From Nonlabens sp. Ci31 (GTDB taxonomy: Bacteria; Bacteroidota; Bacteroidia; Flavobacteriales; Flavobacteriaceae), in the NCBI RefSeq assembly GCF_012974865.1, contig NZ_CP043633.1, positions 3,035,501 to 3,099,500 on the forward strand: a stretch of DNA of 64,000 nt, given 5' to 3'. Both the position numbers and the translations under genes were made by a program. Shown here in pieces: positions 57,748 through 64,000 of this stretch; within the stretch, counting starts at the first letter, position 1, and each line of letters opens with the position of its first letter. The notes below the pieces were generated by a model. It searched no databases. It saw nothing but the letters and a program-made list of their open reading frames with translations, and was not told the DNA's origin.

Positions 57748-58734
57748 TTAAGTAGTCATGATATCACTCACTCGTATCAATTCTTTATCGATATCTGTTT
57801 TGCCCTTTACTGCTTGATCAATAGGGCAAAGTACCATTTGAGTATCTCTTATTCCTACCATATAATTTGTTTTTCCTTCTAGCAGACTTTCTACTGCTTT
57901 TACCCCCATACGACTGGCAAGTACTCGATCAAAACAGGATGGTGATCCACCGCGTTGCATATGACCTAAGACAGACACACGTACGTCGTATTCTGGTAAA
58001 TTAGCTTCTACGTAATCCTTAAGTTCAAAAACATTATCGCCTGTTTTATCTCCTTCAGCCACGACAACTATACTCGATGATTTTCCAGAAAGTCTCGATC
58101 TTTTCAAACTTTCAATCAATCGTTCCTTTCCTAAATTCTCTTCAGGAATTAAGATTTCTTCTGCTCCTGCTCCTACTCCAGCATTTAATGCAATATTACC
58201 TACGTCTCGTCCCATTACTTCCACAAAAAACAACCGGTCATGGGAACTTGCTGTATCCCTTATTTTGTCAATTGCTTCTACCACTGTATTTAATGCGGTG
58301 TCATAACCTAATGTATAAGACGTTCCGTAAATATCATTATCTATAGTTCCAGGTATCCCCATCATCGGAAAACCAAATTCTTCAGAAAATATCATGGCAC
58401 CGGTAAAACTACCGTCTCCACCTATTACTACTATCGCATCAAGTCCTTTTTGTTTTGCTTTCGCGAAAGCGGTTTCACGACCTTCTTTAGTCCTAAAATC
58501 TTTAGAGCGAGCACTTTTAAGAATAGTACCACCTTTATTAATAATATTATTTACACTACGAGCGTCCATTTCTTTAAAGTCACCTTCTATTAAACCTTGG
58601 TAACCTCTATAGATCCCAACGCACTCAGTTTTGTGAAAAGCACAGGTACGGACCACCGACCTGATGGCAGCGTTCATACCAGGAGAATCACCTCCAGAAG
58701 TCATCACCCCTATTTTATTAATCTTATTGTTCAT
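57748..58734 (-). CDS. pfkA: ATP-dependent 6-phosphofructokinase
   Basis: 328 residues. Characteristic motifs are MTSGGDSPGMNAAIRSVVR near residue 13, GGDGSFTGAM near 104, PGTIDNDIYG near 129 with the catalytic Asp, VEVMGRDVGN near 172, and LGHMQRGGSPSCFDR near 257. The Gly after the GGD motif is the ATP-type residue. It performs the committed step of glycolysis. A palindrome copy (58457-58470) encodes AFAKAK next to the VVIGGDGSF strand. Upstream of gapA on the same strand. Confidence 0.96.
   Translation of the reverse strand: MNNKINKIGVMTSGGDSPGMNAAIRSVVRTCAFHKTECVGIYRGYQGLIEGDFKEMDARSVNNIINKGGTILKSARSKDFRTKEGRETAFAKAKQKGLDAIVVIGGDGSFTGAMIFSEEFGFPMMGIPGTIDNDIYGTSYTLGYDTALNTVVEAIDKIRDTASSHDRLFFVEVMGRDVGNIALNAGVGAGAEEILIPEENLGKERLIESLKRSRLSGKSSSIVVVAEGDKTGDNVFELKDYVEANLPEYDVRVSVLGHMQRGGSPSCFDRVLASRMGVKAVESLLEGKTNYMVGIRDTQMVLCPIDQAVKGKTDIDKELIRVSDIMTT
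58457..58470. repeat. Dispersed palindromic element inside pfkA
   Basis: Exact core GCTTTCGCGAAAGC, read on the minus strand as Ala-Phe-Ala-Lys-Ala. Confidence 0.88.
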
Positions 58735-58850
58735 TGAATTTTTGATAAAATCTACGCTAATCTATTAAAGTTTTGCGAGTGAAAGTAGTGAATTATTCTA
58801 TATTTAGCGTTTTAAGAAAATTCAAACGTTATCGTTAATAACTTTTATAC

Positions 58851-60593
58851 ATGAAATTAGAATTCATAGACATTTGCATCATTATCGTCTTCTTTTTGAT
58901 ATCTCTAGCTATAGGACTTATCGTCTCAAAAAGGAGCTCCAAAGACAGTTCTTCCTTTTATCTTTCTGGAAGAAATATGCCTTGGTGGCTGCTCGGTGTC
59001 TCTATGGTGGCTACTACTTTTGCGGCAGACACTCCTAACCTAGTTGCTGGACTCGTGAGAGTAGACGGTGTTTCTGGGAATTGGGTCTGGTGGGCGTTTT
59101 TACTTACCGGAATGCTAACGGTATTTTTTTATGCTCGTTTATGGCGTCGTAGCGGCATTACCACAGATCTTGAATTTTACGAGATGCGATACAGCGGTAA
59201 AAGCGCTGCATTTTTACGTGGCTTCAGAGCTATTTATTTAGGAGTAGTCTTTAACATTGTTATTATGGCAACCGTTTGCCTTGCTGCTATTAAAATAGGT
59301 CATGTCATGTTTGGTTTTAGTGCTGCAACTGCGCTTACTTATGCTTCGATCGTCACACTAGCCTATTCCCTACTCGGCGGACTAAAAGGTGTCCTTATCA
59401 CTGATTTTGTCCAATTCATTATCGCTATGGTGGGGTCTATCTGGGCAACTTGGTACATTCTTGATCTTCCACAAATCAACGGTATGGCAAATCTGATTAC
59501 ACATCCTAACGTACAAGGTAAATTAAATTTGTTGCCAGACTTCTCCAATACAGATTTGATGATGGGAATATTCATTGTTCCTATTGCTGTGCAGTGGTGG
59601 AGCACTTGGTATCCTGGAGCTGAGCCTGGTGGTGGGGGTTATATTGCCCAACGGATGCTGGCGGCTAAGGATGAAAAAAATGCCACATGGGCAGTACTGT
59701 TTTTTAATCTTGCTCATTATGCATTGCGCCCTTGGCCGTGGATCATTATAGGACTAGCTTCTCTTATTATTTACCCTAATTTGGAATCTCTAGCAGTGGC
59801 ATTTCCTGATCTCGACCCAAGCTTTATCAAAGACGATTTGAGTTATCCTGCGATGCTAACCTTCTTACCCGCTGGATTATTAGGACTGGTGGTAACATCT
59901 CTAGTAGCGGCATTTATGAGCACTATTTCAACTCATTTAAATTGGGGCTCTAGTTATGTCGTGAATGATTTTTATGCACGTTTTATAAATAAAGACGCCA
60001 GTGAAAAACAAAAAGTCACTACTGGGCGCCTTTCAATGGTCCTTATGATGGCTCTTGCCGCTCTGCTTTCCTTTGTACTGGAGGAAGCTAAATTTGCCTT
60101 TGACCTGATCATACAAATAGGTGCGGGATCTGGATTGTTATTTATTCTTAGGTGGTTTTGGTACCGCATCAATCCGTGGTCAGAAATTACTGCAATGGCA
60201 GTTTCGTTCAGTATGGCCGTCTTATTTTTTATTAATTCCAGTACGGAGTTAGGCTTAACAAACGAGTTATTTGGCAAACTAAAAGGATGGGAAATGATAT
60301 GTATCAATGTTTTGATTACCAGTATAGCTTGGTTAACAGTGACTTTCCTTACGGAGAAAAGCAATCAAAAAACCATCGATAGTTTTCACGCTGCTATTTT
60401 TGGTGAAGAATCAAAGTTTCACCATTTCCAATTCAAGACACTAGGTTTTCTTTTAGGAGTGATGGGTGTTTACAGTCTGTTATTTGCTACTGGTAAATTA
60501 CTCTATGGTCAGATGGGAATAGGTTTTGTTTTGCTCGGTATTTTTATAGCTTGTGCTTCAGGGATTTTAGCGATGAGAAAGAAACTGTTTTAG
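58851..60593 (+). CDS. Sodium:solute symporter family protein
   Basis: 580 residues with 13-14 membrane helices. SSS-family features are the N-terminal SKDSSSFYLSGRNMPWWLLG loop (residues 31-50), MVATTFAADTPNLVAGLVR, SLLGGLKGVLITDFVQF near 180, and MSTISTHLNWGSSYVVNDFY near 365. The family takes up sugars, amino acids or other solutes with Na+. The N-terminal WWLLGVSMVATTFAADTP resembles the subgroup often found in Bacteroidota; substrate not determinable. It is divergent from pfkA. Confidence 0.88.
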   Translation: MKLEFIDICIIIVFFLISLAIGLIVSKRSSKDSSSFYLSGRNMPWWLLGVSMVATTFAADTPNLVAGLVRVDGVSGNWVWWAFLLTGMLTVFFYARLWRRSGITTDLEFYEMRYSGKSAAFLRGFRAIYLGVVFNIVIMATVCLAAIKIGHVMFGFSAATALTYASIVTLAYSLLGGLKGVLITDFVQFIIAMVGSIWATWYILDLPQINGMANLITHPNVQGKLNLLPDFSNTDLMMGIFIVPIAVQWWSTWYPGAEPGGGGYIAQRMLAAKDEKNATWAVLFFNLAHYALRPWPWIIIGLASLIIYPNLESLAVAFPDLDPSFIKDDLSYPAMLTFLPAGLLGLVVTSLVAAFMSTISTHLNWGSSYVVNDFYARFINKDASEKQKVTTGRLSMVLMMALAALLSFVLEEAKFAFDLIIQIGAGSGLLFILRWFWYRINPWSEITAMAVSFSMAVLFFINSSTELGLTNELFGKLKGWEMICINVLITSIAWLTVTFLTEKSNQKTIDSFHAAIFGEESKFHHFQFKTLGFLLGVMGVYSLLFATGKLLYGQMGIGFVLLGIFIACASGILAMRKKLF

Positions 60594-60880
60594 CATACGC
60601 ATTAACTGCGTAGGCTGGCAACGCTCGATGAAGAACAGGAGAACCACCTCCTTTTTTGAAAATATAAAAGAAAGCGAAACAATACTAGGATCACTTCGTG
60701 AATTTACTATTCCTTTTCAAACTACTAAATTAGGTGAGGTAAAGACACCAATTAACTAATGATACCAAAGAGGCTTTTTACCCAGTTTAAAAAAAATAGT
60801 GTAAATTCATTTTTTATCACATCAAATAATAGTTGGAACTGGATGTTCCTTAATTTTTTATCAAGTGTTACCACCTAAAT

Positions 60881-61984
60881 ATGAAAAAAATATACTTTGC
60901 TCTCCTGCTATCGATTATTTCATCCTTATTTACCAGCATTGTTTTTGCGCAATGTACTGGTATAACCGTAGGAAGTCTCACCAGTACTGGACCTTTTTCT
61001 GTGAGTACGCTTACAGAGGCAGACGGGATCCGTAATGGTCCTAATTATTTAGGAGCGACTATTTACTATCCTACAAACGTGACACCCACACAGCTTTTAG
61101 CAAGTATTGCAATCGTACCAGGTTTTACTGCACTTCCTTCAAGTGTTGCAGATTGGGGCCCGTTTTATGCTTCTCACGGTATTGTAACTATTATTATAGG
61201 AACGAATTCTCTTTTTGACCTTCCTGAAGCGCGCGCTTTTGCGCTGTTAGACGCTTTGGAGACTATCAAACAAGAAAATATAAGAGTTTCATCTCCTCTA
61301 GAAGGAGCTCTTAACTTAAATCAGTTGGCTGTTAGTGGATGGTCTATGGGTGGCGGCGGTGCCCAGAGAGCTGCCGTTCTAGACAACAACATCGCTGCTG
61401 TAGTCGCATTGTGCCCGTATTTAAATAGTCCTCAACTCAATCATCAGAGCCCTGTATTAATTTTTAGCGGGGAAAACGATACGGTAGCACCACCTTCGCA
61501 ACATGCCGATATCCATTACAATACCACCCCAAATACAACCGATAAATTGCTCTTTGAAGTGGCAAACGGAAATCACTCTGTTGCCAACTCGCCTAATGGT
61601 GGAAGTGGTTCTGTGGGCAGGATAGCGCTTTCATGGCTTAAACTATACTTAGAAGGGAATGACTGTTATTGCCCTTTATTGACCAATACACTCTTAGTAA
61701 ATCCACCAGCGGCATCAAAAGTAGATCAAGATTTTCAATGCACCTTATTAGGATTGGATCCTCAAGAATTGACAAGTGTGGTTTATCCTAATCCAACAAC
61801 AAACGTACTGCATTTAGATATCGCTAAGGATGTTGATTACCAGCTTATTTCTACTCTAGGTCAAAAAGTTTTGGAAGGACATCTACAAGGTGGAAACAAA
61901 CAAATCACAATTTCACCATTTCCAGCAGGCATGTATTATTTGTACATAGAAGGTCAAATTATAAAGATCATAAAACAACAATAA
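60881..61984 (+). CDS. Secreted polyester hydrolase-like alpha/beta hydrolase with T9SS sorting domain (PETase-like)
   Basis: 367 residues. A signal peptide (1-23) is followed by an alpha/beta hydrolase: IVPGFTALPSSVADWGPFYA (oxyanion loop, Phe82), GWSMGGGGAQ (nucleophile Ser155, Trp154 before it, Met156), GENDTVAPP (Asp200) and ANGNHSVANSPNGG (His232). Order and wording closely follow the PET-hydrolase/cutinase group such as Ideonella PETase, where GWSMGG, ENDSIAP and GGSHSCAN occur. C-terminal residues 299-367 (VVYPNPTTNVLHLDI onward) form a type IX secretion sorting domain, so the enzyme is surface-bound or released. Polyester activity is inferred. A dienelactone hydrolase-like ester role is the alternative. 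Confidence 0.85.
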   Translation: MKKIYFALLLSIISSLFTSIVFAQCTGITVGSLTSTGPFSVSTLTEADGIRNGPNYLGATIYYPTNVTPTQLLASIAIVPGFTALPSSVADWGPFYASHGIVTIIIGTNSLFDLPEARAFALLDALETIKQENIRVSSPLEGALNLNQLAVSGWSMGGGGAQRAAVLDNNIAAVVALCPYLNSPQLNHQSPVLIFSGENDTVAPPSQHADIHYNTTPNTTDKLLFEVANGNHSVANSPNGGSGSVGRIALSWLKLYLEGNDCYCPLLTNTLLVNPPAASKVDQDFQCTLLGLDPQELTSVVYPNPTTNVLHLDIAKDVDYQLISTLGQKVLEGHLQGGNKQITISPFPAGMYYLYIEGQIIKIIKQQ

Positions 61985-62120
61985 GAGGTTTAAATCAACT
62001 CCTTAGCAGGGTGGTCTAGTTCCTATAAAATAAAGGTCCTACTAATAAGGTAGATCTGTTTCTATGCTGCAAATAAACCTGATGTATTCTCTATGATAAC
62101 ATTTTAGGATACTTTGAATT

Positions 62121-62144
62121 GTTCCGCTTTCGCGAAAGCGGAAC
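62121..62144. repeat. Dispersed palindromic element, best copy
   Basis: Perfect 24-bp palindrome with arms GTTCCGCTTTCG / CGAAAGCGGAAC, between the PETase-like gene and the ScfR-type regulator. Taken as the consensus of the family in this window. Confidence 0.95.
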
Positions 62145-62210
62145 AGTATTCACACTAAAAACACTTAAAATTTCTCCTTTAGGGTTCATACATACAATTA
62201 TAAAACACCT

Positions 62211-63689
62211 TTAAGCCATGAACTTAGCATTTAATTCTTCGACAATTTTTTCTATGTTTTTATTTCTAGCCACTTTATCTAAGATAGTTGCTGGCACTTG
62301 TCTCACCTCACAATCTTGAATAGAACAACGCTCGCAAGTCACTCCTACATGATGGTTTTTTATTTTAGGGTCTGTTAAAAAATGCAGTTTTCTTTCCAAT
62401 TGCTTATTGATAAGCAACCCGATGCTGATACTCCTAAAATGATTTTCTTTAAAAGGATCTTTAGTTACAGAGGACATTACCAAATACTTGGGACCATCAT
62501 TTTCATAGTTAGATATCTGTAAGTCAAATTCATGATTCTTTTCACTGTTACACATCTCTTTCAGTAACTTTAAAGATACCCACCGCCTGCAATAATGCTC
62601 ATTAGTTTCATTAGCATGTGGCGAATGTTGATGCGACAAATGCAATTCTTTTTTAAGATAAAATTGATGGCTTCCTGCCTTGTGTGTAAATCTCAAGAAA
62701 AATAAATTTTGAATATTATAGGCTTTGGGTAAAATATTAGTCAACCGCTGATAAAAGGATTCTGGAGAGGCATTAAATGCTTGTATAGCATCTAAAAATA
62801 AGGATCTATCGAAAGTCTCTTTTTCAAAAATATCCTGAAGCTTGGCTTTTATTTTATCACTGGGAATAATCAAAGCTCCAGCAAAATAAGAAGCATAGAA
62901 ATTATTTAAAACTTGGTCAAAAGAGTCAAATTTTATCCAAGGGAACGTGTACAAACGTTCCTGAATCTCTAGAAAATTATAGGCCAGTTCTTTTGCGTAA
63001 ATAAAAGTACGTTGAGCTTCGTCTATTTCATTGGTAAGTAGTAGGGTTTTGGTTTTGGGAACAAATACAGACCTCAAATTGCCCAATGCTTTATATTTAC
63101 TTAATTCATTGCCTTTTATACGGTATCCAAATTCTTCAATTAATATCTCTTCCAGATCTTTAGAAGTAATTTGTCCCTCTAAATCTATGTGATAGGCTCT
63201 AGCAAATTTTATAACACTTAGTTCTAAATCTTCAAAATAATTCTTATTTGCTTCTTGGAAAGAACGCACCGAAGCAAGGTAAAAACTCTCTCTACTGAAA
63301 TTATAATGTTGGGCGATTTTAATAATGGTAGTAATAAAGGCATTGACTTTAGCAGGTGCATTTGCTACAATGTCTATCAAATTACTCTCTTTAATACCGA
63401 AAAGCTCTAAGGGTATTTCTTTAAGTATTTTAGACTGTAGTATCTCTCCTATAGGAGCTAAGTTCTTATCTAACTTTAAGGATACCATTTGATCATAAGG
63501 CACATCTAATTTTTCAGAGAGCATTGCAATCTTATCAGGTTTTGGATATTTTTTTCCGTTTTCAATTTCGTTTAAATAAGACTTTGATAAACCAGAAAGT
63601 TTAGATAAACCAAACAAGGATAAATTCTTGTCCGTCCGTATCTGCTTGAGCTTTAAGCCAAATATCAATTTAATATAATCTTCTTCCAT
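62211..63689 (-). CDS. XRE/ScfR-type transcriptional regulator (RamB-like)
   Basis: 492 residues. An XRE helix-turn-helix fills about residues 10-65 (LKQIRTDKNLSLFGLSKLSG, KSYLNEIENGKKYPKP). A central region near 220-300 resembles the IrrE/ImmA-like domain (LTNEIDEAQRTFIYAKELAY) but lacks an evident HExxH zinc motif. The C-terminal ScfR/DUF2083-like part ends with a Cys cluster CERCSIQDCEVR near residue 450. RamB and related regulators control acetate and glyoxylate genes; here the neighbour transcribed in the opposite direction is malate synthase, which supports that role. Confidence 0.82.
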   Translation of the reverse strand: MEEDYIKLIFGLKLKQIRTDKNLSLFGLSKLSGLSKSYLNEIENGKKYPKPDKIAMLSEKLDVPYDQMVSLKLDKNLAPIGEILQSKILKEIPLELFGIKESNLIDIVANAPAKVNAFITTIIKIAQHYNFSRESFYLASVRSFQEANKNYFEDLELSVIKFARAYHIDLEGQITSKDLEEILIEEFGYRIKGNELSKYKALGNLRSVFVPKTKTLLLTNEIDEAQRTFIYAKELAYNFLEIQERLYTFPWIKFDSFDQVLNNFYASYFAGALIIPSDKIKAKLQDIFEKETFDRSLFLDAIQAFNASPESFYQRLTNILPKAYNIQNLFFLRFTHKAGSHQFYLKKELHLSHQHSPHANETNEHYCRRWVSLKLLKEMCNSEKNHEFDLQISNYENDGPKYLVMSSVTKDPFKENHFRSISIGLLINKQLERKLHFLTDPKIKNHHVGVTCERCSIQDCEVRQVPATILDKVARNKNIEKIVEELNAKFMA

Positions 63690-63694
63690 AAGAA

Positions 63695-63702
63695 CAAATA
63701 TA
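63695..63702 (-). promoter_or_regulatory. TAnnTTTG -7 box of the ScfR-type regulator gene
   Basis: Minus-strand TATATTTG, five bases before the ATG at 63689. Confidence 0.55.
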
Positions 63703-63704
63703 AG

Positions 63705-63758
63705 ATATTTTGCGAACTTTTATATTTTGCGAATTATATCTTTTAGCGAACGTTCGCT
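63705..63758. promoter_or_regulatory. Operator-like repeat cluster between ScfR-type regulator and aceB
   Basis: ATATTTTGCGAA occurs at 63705-63716 and again at 63722-63733 (17-bp period). A perfect 14-bp palindrome AGCGAACGTTCGCT follows at 63745-63758. They sit directly upstream of the regulator's own -7 box, as expected for autoregulation and for control of the divergent aceB. Confidence 0.6.
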
Positions 63759-63808
63759 TGTTTTTATTAAATCTTTGTTTTACTATTGTATTATAAAATA
63801 AACACCTC

Positions 63809-64000
63809 ATGGAAACCAGCACATTAAATTTAAGGAAACTCACGTATTCCAAAGACGTAGATAATTACTACCCAAAAATCCTATCAGACGAAGCCCTACA
63901 ATTTTTAACCGTACTTCATGAAAAATTCAATACCCAGCGATTGGAATTACTACAAAGCCGGTTGGAACAACAAAAGAAGTTTGACAAAGGTTTATTTCCT
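63809..64000 (+). CDS. aceB: Malate synthase A, 5' part (cut by window end)
   Basis: 64 codons to the window edge, beginning METSTLNLRKLTY. The stretch ILSDEALQFLTVLHEKFNTQ then RLELLQSRLEQQKKFDKG matches the N-terminal helices of malate synthase A. The enzyme joins glyoxylate and acetyl-CoA in the glyoxylate shunt. It is divergent from the ScfR-type regulator, with the repeat cluster between them. Confidence 0.8.
   Translation, partial: METSTLNLRKLTYSKDVDNYYPKILSDEALQFLTVLHEKFNTQRLELLQSRLEQQKKFDKGLFP

Follow-up and report, generated by a model that had tools for sequence, protein, structure and literature searches.

The window, by which we mean the whole 64,000-nucleotide stretch of Nonlabens sp. 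Ci31 that was analyzed (assembly GCF_012974865.1, contig NZ_CP043633.1, positions 3,035,501 to 3,099,500), carries near its right end a gene for a hydrolase related to the polyethylene terephthalate (PET) hydrolases. Its open reading frame (ORF) runs unbroken from ATG to stop on the plus strand (60881–61984) and encodes 367 amino acids. The best explanation, to which we give a probability of roughly 0.87 on the strength of homology, fold prediction and analogy with assayed relatives, is that the gene encodes an exported, promiscuous serine carboxyl-ester hydrolase of the PET30 type. The gene has the following features.

60881–61984, plus strand: predicted PET30-like ester/polyester hydrolase exported by the type IX secretion system (T9SS), 367 aa (ORF, profiles, PET30 alignment)
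60881–60949, plus strand: putative signal peptide, residues 1-23, cleavage before Gln24-Cys25 (PET30 alignment, AlphaFold helix 2-16)
60965–61684, plus strand: catalytic alpha/beta-hydrolase domain, residues 29-268 (PF12740)
61118–61126, plus strand: Pro80-Gly81-Phe82, oxyanion and aromatic-clamp element; Phe82 corresponds to PET30 Phe80 (alignment)
61337–61360, plus strand: GWSMGGGG, with the nucleophile Ser155 at 61343–61345, then Met156 (alignment)
61418–61420, plus strand: Tyr180, corresponding to PET30 Tyr178 and to the site of the IsPETase wobbling Trp (alignment; PMC8767016)
61478–61480, plus strand: catalytic Asp200 (alignment)
61574–61576, plus strand: catalytic His232 (alignment)
61670–61741, plus strand: Cys264 to Cys287, counterpart of the single PET30 disulfide C262-C285, predicted bond (alignment; PMC8767016)
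61781–61972, plus strand: C-terminal Por/T9SS type A sorting domain, residues 301-364 (PF18962, TIGR04183)

Domains, fold and active site

A Pfam profile search places PF12740 (PETase, PET hydrolase-like) on residues 29-268 with 181 bits (cut-off 28, E = 3.8e-53), a match well beyond chance. The dienelactone hydrolase family PF01738, which the first-pass annotation had kept in view as the competing assignment, was not among the five Pfam families matching the protein at E ≤ 1e-3; some homologs carry the source label "dienelactone hydrolase". The score against NF051441, the NCBIfam equivalog for bis(hydroxyethyl) terephthalate (BHET) hydrolase, was 142.7 bits, under the curated cut-off of 520. 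The Por-type sorting domain that had been proposed for the C-terminus is borne out by both PF18962 (34.6 bits, cut-off 27, residues 301-364) and TIGR04183 (35.4 bits, cut-off 23). SprA, the T9SS translocon, is encoded in the genome (2780 bits), and from the tail and the translocon together we infer that the hydrolase is T9SS cargo. At the N-terminus AlphaFold predicts a helix over residues 2-16 with low confidence, and the cleavage site is placed only by alignment to PET30, for which cleavage at 23-24 has been published (PMC8767016 Table 3). We found no minus-strand ORF of at least 80 aa overlapping the gene, and the translated antisense frame is full of stops.

The predicted model has a confident PETase fold whose residues 28..292 superpose on 7PZJ, with the putative Ser-Asp-His triad at aligned positions on the cutinase/PETase fold; the disassembled triad that would have spoken against a polyester hydrolase did not appear. 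The closest solved protein is that same entry (PDB 7pzj, residues 1-367 aligned, E = 4.4e-154), with the PDB molecule name Lipase and a PDB title describing a bacteroidetal PET esterase; it is PET30 of Kaistella jeonii (PMC8767016). The next solved relatives, Ple629, Ple628, 7cwq, 8otu, PET2, LCC and IsPETase, follow at E values of 4.3e-50 to about 1e-40, and PET30 is the best solved relative over the full length.

All motifs listed in the first-pass annotation are present as quoted: GFTA with Phe82, WGPFYASHG, GWSMGGGG with Ser155, CPY with Tyr180, GENDTVAPP with Asp200 and ANGNHSVAN with His232. We assessed their conservation in two samples. From a large protein set, 7999 candidates were scored and 1338 homologs found at E ≤ 1e-3; residue counts are over 121 proteins, made up of the window protein plus 120 listed hits of these 1338, which are 65-89% identical to the hydrolase and carry both PF12740 and PF18962. 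The second sample is the best 80 of 148 homolog loci found, with flanks of up to 8 kb (several contigs are shorter); its residue and motif counts include L126, which has a frame break and 52 stops over the matched span, and the truncated L117. Ser155, Asp200 and His232 are identical in 121/121 proteins. Met156 corresponds to PET30 Met154, and the aromatic clamp is Phe-Met-Tyr here, not the Tyr-Met-Trp of IsPETase. Across the proteins the clamp combinations are FMY (n = 54), FMW (35), YMW (21), FMF (8) and three singletons; across the loci they are FMW (46), FMY (16), YMW (12), FMF (3) and three singletons, two of them gapped at position 82. From these counts Phe82 and Tyr180 are a common state of the clade, and they form the published Phe-Met-Tyr motif of PET30 (PMC8767016); their earlier description as notable differences is therefore not supported. 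A 2026 paper (PMC13188925) gives Phe Met Trp as the binding motif of PET30, at odds with PMC8767016 and with the K. jeonii locus.

The cysteines speak against the "full" PETase catalytic signature that had been claimed, and they were a point missed earlier. Cys264 and Cys287 are each present in 119/121 proteins. The IsPETase-type Cys residues in ACEN and SCAN correspond to Gly197 and Val234 in the hydrolase, so the second, active-site disulfide is missing; Gly occupies position 197 in 121/121 proteins and Val position 234 in 114/121. Also absent is the published M5 tail element, DxDxR(Y)xxFxC (motif as read from PMC12224614), which was found neither in the hydrolase nor in the K. jeonii locus, and in 0/121 proteins and 0/80 loci; as controls for this search the tail pieces of an IsPETase entry and of PET44 matched and the 7cwq piece did not. 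Cys25 (60953–60955), which adjoins the expected signal cleavage site, and Cys262 (61664–61666) are invariant in a 35-row alignment and lie outside the PET30 disulfide pair; the protein may form a further disulfide.

Distribution and origin of the gene

The source genome (3.74 Mb, one contig) has one strong PF12740 gene; two further matches are weak, at 23 bits and 21 bits; counted together with its frame neighbors the second reaches 32 bits, above the cut-off. With the protein as query against 59 genomes, the source included, no ortholog was found in any of 22 Nonlabens congeners or 36 other relatives. Matches at E ≤ 1e-3 occur in 44/59 genomes, and apart from the gene itself all are weak (at most 35.8 bits), being mostly Por tails and a few partial catalytic-domain matches. 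PF12740 scores above its cut-off in 7/23 Nonlabens genomes, the best outside the source being 62.8 bits for a 313-aa frame in G009. Family-wide, with at most 5 candidates scored per genome, PF12740 matches at E ≤ 1e-50 occur in 15/397 genomes and 12/237 genera, source genome counted. Named carriers among the homolog loci include Psychroflexus gondwanensis, Ulvibacter antarcticus, Brumimicrobium glaciale, Polaribacter and Aequorivita, many of which we take to be cold-water taxa. One family genome has a tandem pair of PET30-type hydrolases (G182:C35:27824-30226; L164, L167), 46% and 45% identical to the window protein.

A midpoint-rooted tree was built from 72/80 loci and 11/121 proteins, with short or broken loci omitted (L103, L117, L122, L126, L127, L132, L136 and L137). 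The hydrolase clusters with two sequences from metagenomes (97/92); the genera around them are mixed, and the K. jeonii protein falls elsewhere. In this tree 20/80 inner forks are open, the deeper ones partly, and row L120 stands on a branch of 3.

The gene lies between the following neighboring features.

58851–60593, plus strand: sodium:solute symporter, last gene of the conserved Nonlabens flank (profile search, congener comparison)
60599–64000, no strand: left part of a ~13.5-kb segment missing from the corresponding site of the closest congener, G009; runs beyond the window end (congener comparison)
60637–60652, plus strand: terminator-like hairpin then T run, between symporter and hydrolase (pattern match only)
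62120–62145, no strand: perfect 13+13 palindrome (26 bp, no loop) between the convergent hydrolase and regulator genes (palindrome search)
62211–63689, minus strand: helix-turn-helix (HTH)/IrrE-type regulator resembling ScfR/RamB, below those cut-offs (profile search)

The left flank, gapA, pfkA and the symporter, is 91% identical to G009, and close homologs of the symporter bear the name Nonlabens at their sources. Similarity ends right after the symporter stop codon and restarts about 13.5 kb on at pcm, so that the whole segment spans about 3096099–3109598 of the contig in the source genome (G000). In eight congener stretches the symporter-pcm distance was 108 bp in G009 and about 2.5 kb in G008; no pcm was found in the stretches covering the other six. 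Besides the hydrolase and the regulator, the segment encodes malate synthase, isocitrate lyase and a 796-aa T9SS protein with DUF7619, along with small ORFs and a short ORF for a methyltransferase. In L034 16279–17232 this 162-aa methyltransferase ORF precedes small ORFs that match no family; it may have been truncated or be in decay.

We conclude that the hydrolase gene was probably gained by horizontal transfer in this Nonlabens lineage. The competing account, descent of the gene from the Nonlabens ancestor with loss in the other species sampled, could draw on the 108-bp symporter-pcm adjacency in G009 as a deletion scar. Weighing on the same side, against acquisition, are the variability of the symporter-pcm site within the genus and the overall G+C of the hydrolase, which equals that of its flank (0.409 vs 0.407 for the symporter); its third-position G+C (0.304 vs 0.367 for the symporter) and the G+C of the whole segment (0.341) are lower, weak evidence either way. 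We nonetheless regard ancestry with loss as improbable given the lack of an ortholog in all 58 sampled relatives, the few family genomes and genera that carry a match and the mixing of genera in the gene tree; acquisition is the simpler reading. No second genome copy of the 167-bp left edge of the segment was found, and hence no repeat-borne insertion is recognized.

The hydrolase is most likely a stand-alone accessory gene, because a 287-bp gap with a hairpin lies between it and the symporter, the palindrome sits between it and the convergent regulator, and symporter, regulator, malate synthase and isocitrate lyase are shared by none of the 80 homolog loci. Terminator-like sites number 5 in 60500–62250, as compared to a mean of 1.2 in shuffles, by pattern match only. 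The palindrome is probably a two-way terminator of a common type; others like it turned up at many further sites in Nonlabens stretches. The sequence TAnnTTTG, which we take to be the Bacteroidota promoter motif, is absent from the 200 bp upstream of the hydrolase and present in 1/9 homolog loci checked (L094). An Rfam scan of 58000–64000 gave no match at E ≤ 0.1, and no tRNA was found in stretch L034. In congener G001 the symporter is split over two frames (G001:C18:97621-99353; L047, L049), by a frameshift or a sequencing error.

The regulator is divergent from malate synthase and isocitrate lyase, both beyond the window end. It occurs in 2/18 genomes searched (G010 and G017 outside these 18), and isocitrate lyase in 4/23 Nonlabens genomes. 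The ScfR/RamB-like regulator, malate synthase and isocitrate lyase recur as a sporadic three-gene glyoxylate module in G010, G014 and G017 (L170, L168, L169); in G017 the malate synthase match falls into two pieces that lie in different frames. It is conceivable that the ~13.5-kb segment is a linked depolymerize-and-assimilate cassette in which exported polyester hydrolase, regulator and glyoxylate shunt were gained together; C2 units or short acids freed from natural aliphatic polyesters would then be assimilated via malate synthase and isocitrate lyase. We consider this very unlikely. No hydrolase or symporter match was found in the 19 kb around each of the three modules, and as these modules come without it the hydrolase is not a fixed part of them.

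Substrate and comparison with described polyester hydrolases

For the PET30-type esterase we propose that the N-terminal signal would carry the protein to the periplasm and the Por tail through the T9SS to the surface or medium, where Ser155, His232 and Asp200 would hydrolyze aliphatic polyesters and esters of short to medium acyl chains through the usual acyl-enzyme intermediate; Met156 and the backbone of Phe82 would form the oxyanion hole. Amorphous PET would be at most a slow side substrate. Export and catalysis are suggested by family, tail and fold, and the substrate range by the behavior of PET27-PET30: all four act on tributyrin and para-nitrophenyl (pNP) esters and clear polycaprolactone (PCL) and Impranil, and the authors describe PET27 and PET30 as promiscuous esterases and assume that PET is not the preferred substrate (PMC8767016). 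Against this reading it must be counted that the neighbors do not reveal a natural substrate, the symporter, the regulator, malate synthase or isocitrate lyase being found beside homologs in 0/80 loci. The sole window neighbor with relatives there is a BadF-type protein (3/80, 34-37% identity). A conserved neighborhood as a substrate cue was rejected after clustering the ORFs of the 80 loci and L034: the recurrent neighbors, e.g. one resembling DNA polymerase I in 18 loci and two resembling ribosomal proteins in 12 (read from the sequences by eye), are confined to related loci and housekeeping-like.

Could PET or a similar aromatic polyester be the main substrate, used on plastic? The PETase fold, triad and clamp elements are in keeping with this, and PET27 and PET30 release measurable terephthalate (PMC8767016). 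PET30 is, however, very weak on PET, about 253-fold below IsPETase (PET27 is 4.7-fold below), and activity was not measurable for PET28 and PET29 (PMC8767016). The active-site disulfide and the M5 element are both wanting, and in the motif series of PMC12224614 PET activity is reported only for enzymes with M5, none being seen with M1-M4 enzymes, and two Flavobacteriales-dominated clades are described as M2-M4. PMC12224614 and PMC8767016 are in partial conflict here, in that PET27 and PET30, which lack M5, did release some terephthalate. The source genome showed no PF00848 dioxygenase (the control matched in 4/14 genomes), and thus there is no sign of a known terephthalate pathway; PF07519 (tannase/MHETase) gave no match, but its control matched nowhere either, and we do not claim absence. 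We judge a genuine PET hydrolase to be highly improbable. A better case can be made for an extracellular lipase or esterase of low-molecular lipids, such as short-chain glycerides and wax or algal esters, with no polymer role: the tributyrin and pNP-ester activities and the authors' own label for PET27 and PET30 agree with it, as does the molecule name of 7PZJ. This too is unlikely, if not to the same degree, in view of the PETase/cutinase fold and the clearing of PCL and Impranil by all four relatives, and export would fit a polymer substrate. Of the earlier proposal of a further marine-type polyester hydrolase, what stands is a T9SS-tagged PF12740 member with PETase-type fold and triad whose nearest Bacteroidota enzyme has measured polyester activity; activity on PET itself is unsupported.

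In the literature searched, the Nonlabens ortholog of PET30 appears undescribed, and the kind of enzyme fully described. The gene adds Nonlabens to the genera carrying PET30-type exported esterases, and its presence in 1/23 Nonlabens and 15/397 family genomes suggests a sporadic, probably mobile accessory of marine flavobacteria. PETase-like motifs are the mark of a large clade of esterases, and the two members that proved active on PET when assayed cleave it far less well than IsPETase; tallies that equate such genes with plastic degradation may thus overestimate how much PET is broken down in the sea.

The hydrolase shares with PET27 and PET30 the Por/T9SS tail, a Phe-Met-(Trp/Tyr) clamp and the single-disulfide cysteine pair. 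PET30 (K. jeonii locus L094) is 72.7% identical over residues 25-290 and 42.9% in the tail; it differs in genus and genomic context, has Thr200 where the hydrolase has Val202 and lacks a two-residue insertion near position 70. In PET30 the substitutions F80Y and Y178W abolished activity on both BHET and PET (PMC8767016). PET27 and PET28/PET29 (Aequorivita) resemble the hydrolase in T9SS tail, triad and family and differ in carrying Phe-Met-Trp; four Aequorivita homologs are 73.9-75.4% identical to it over residues 25-290. As compared to IsPETase of Ideonella sakaiensis, the hydrolase has Phe82 for Tyr, Tyr180 for Trp, neither active-site disulfide nor M5 element, and an extra T9SS tail. PET93 and PET94 (Maribacter, Arenibacter) are likewise flavobacterial secreted alpha/beta hydrolases and are themselves PET-active, whereas they are described as without a Por tail and outside the PET27/PET30 cluster (PMC13188925). 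The marine M4-class "pseudo-PETases" of PMC12224614 share the triad, [PG]G[YF], GxSMG and the lack of M5, a likeness by motif presence, spacing aside. The Nonlabens protein is thus an ordinary further relative of the weakly plastic-active PET30, not a new kind of plastic eater.
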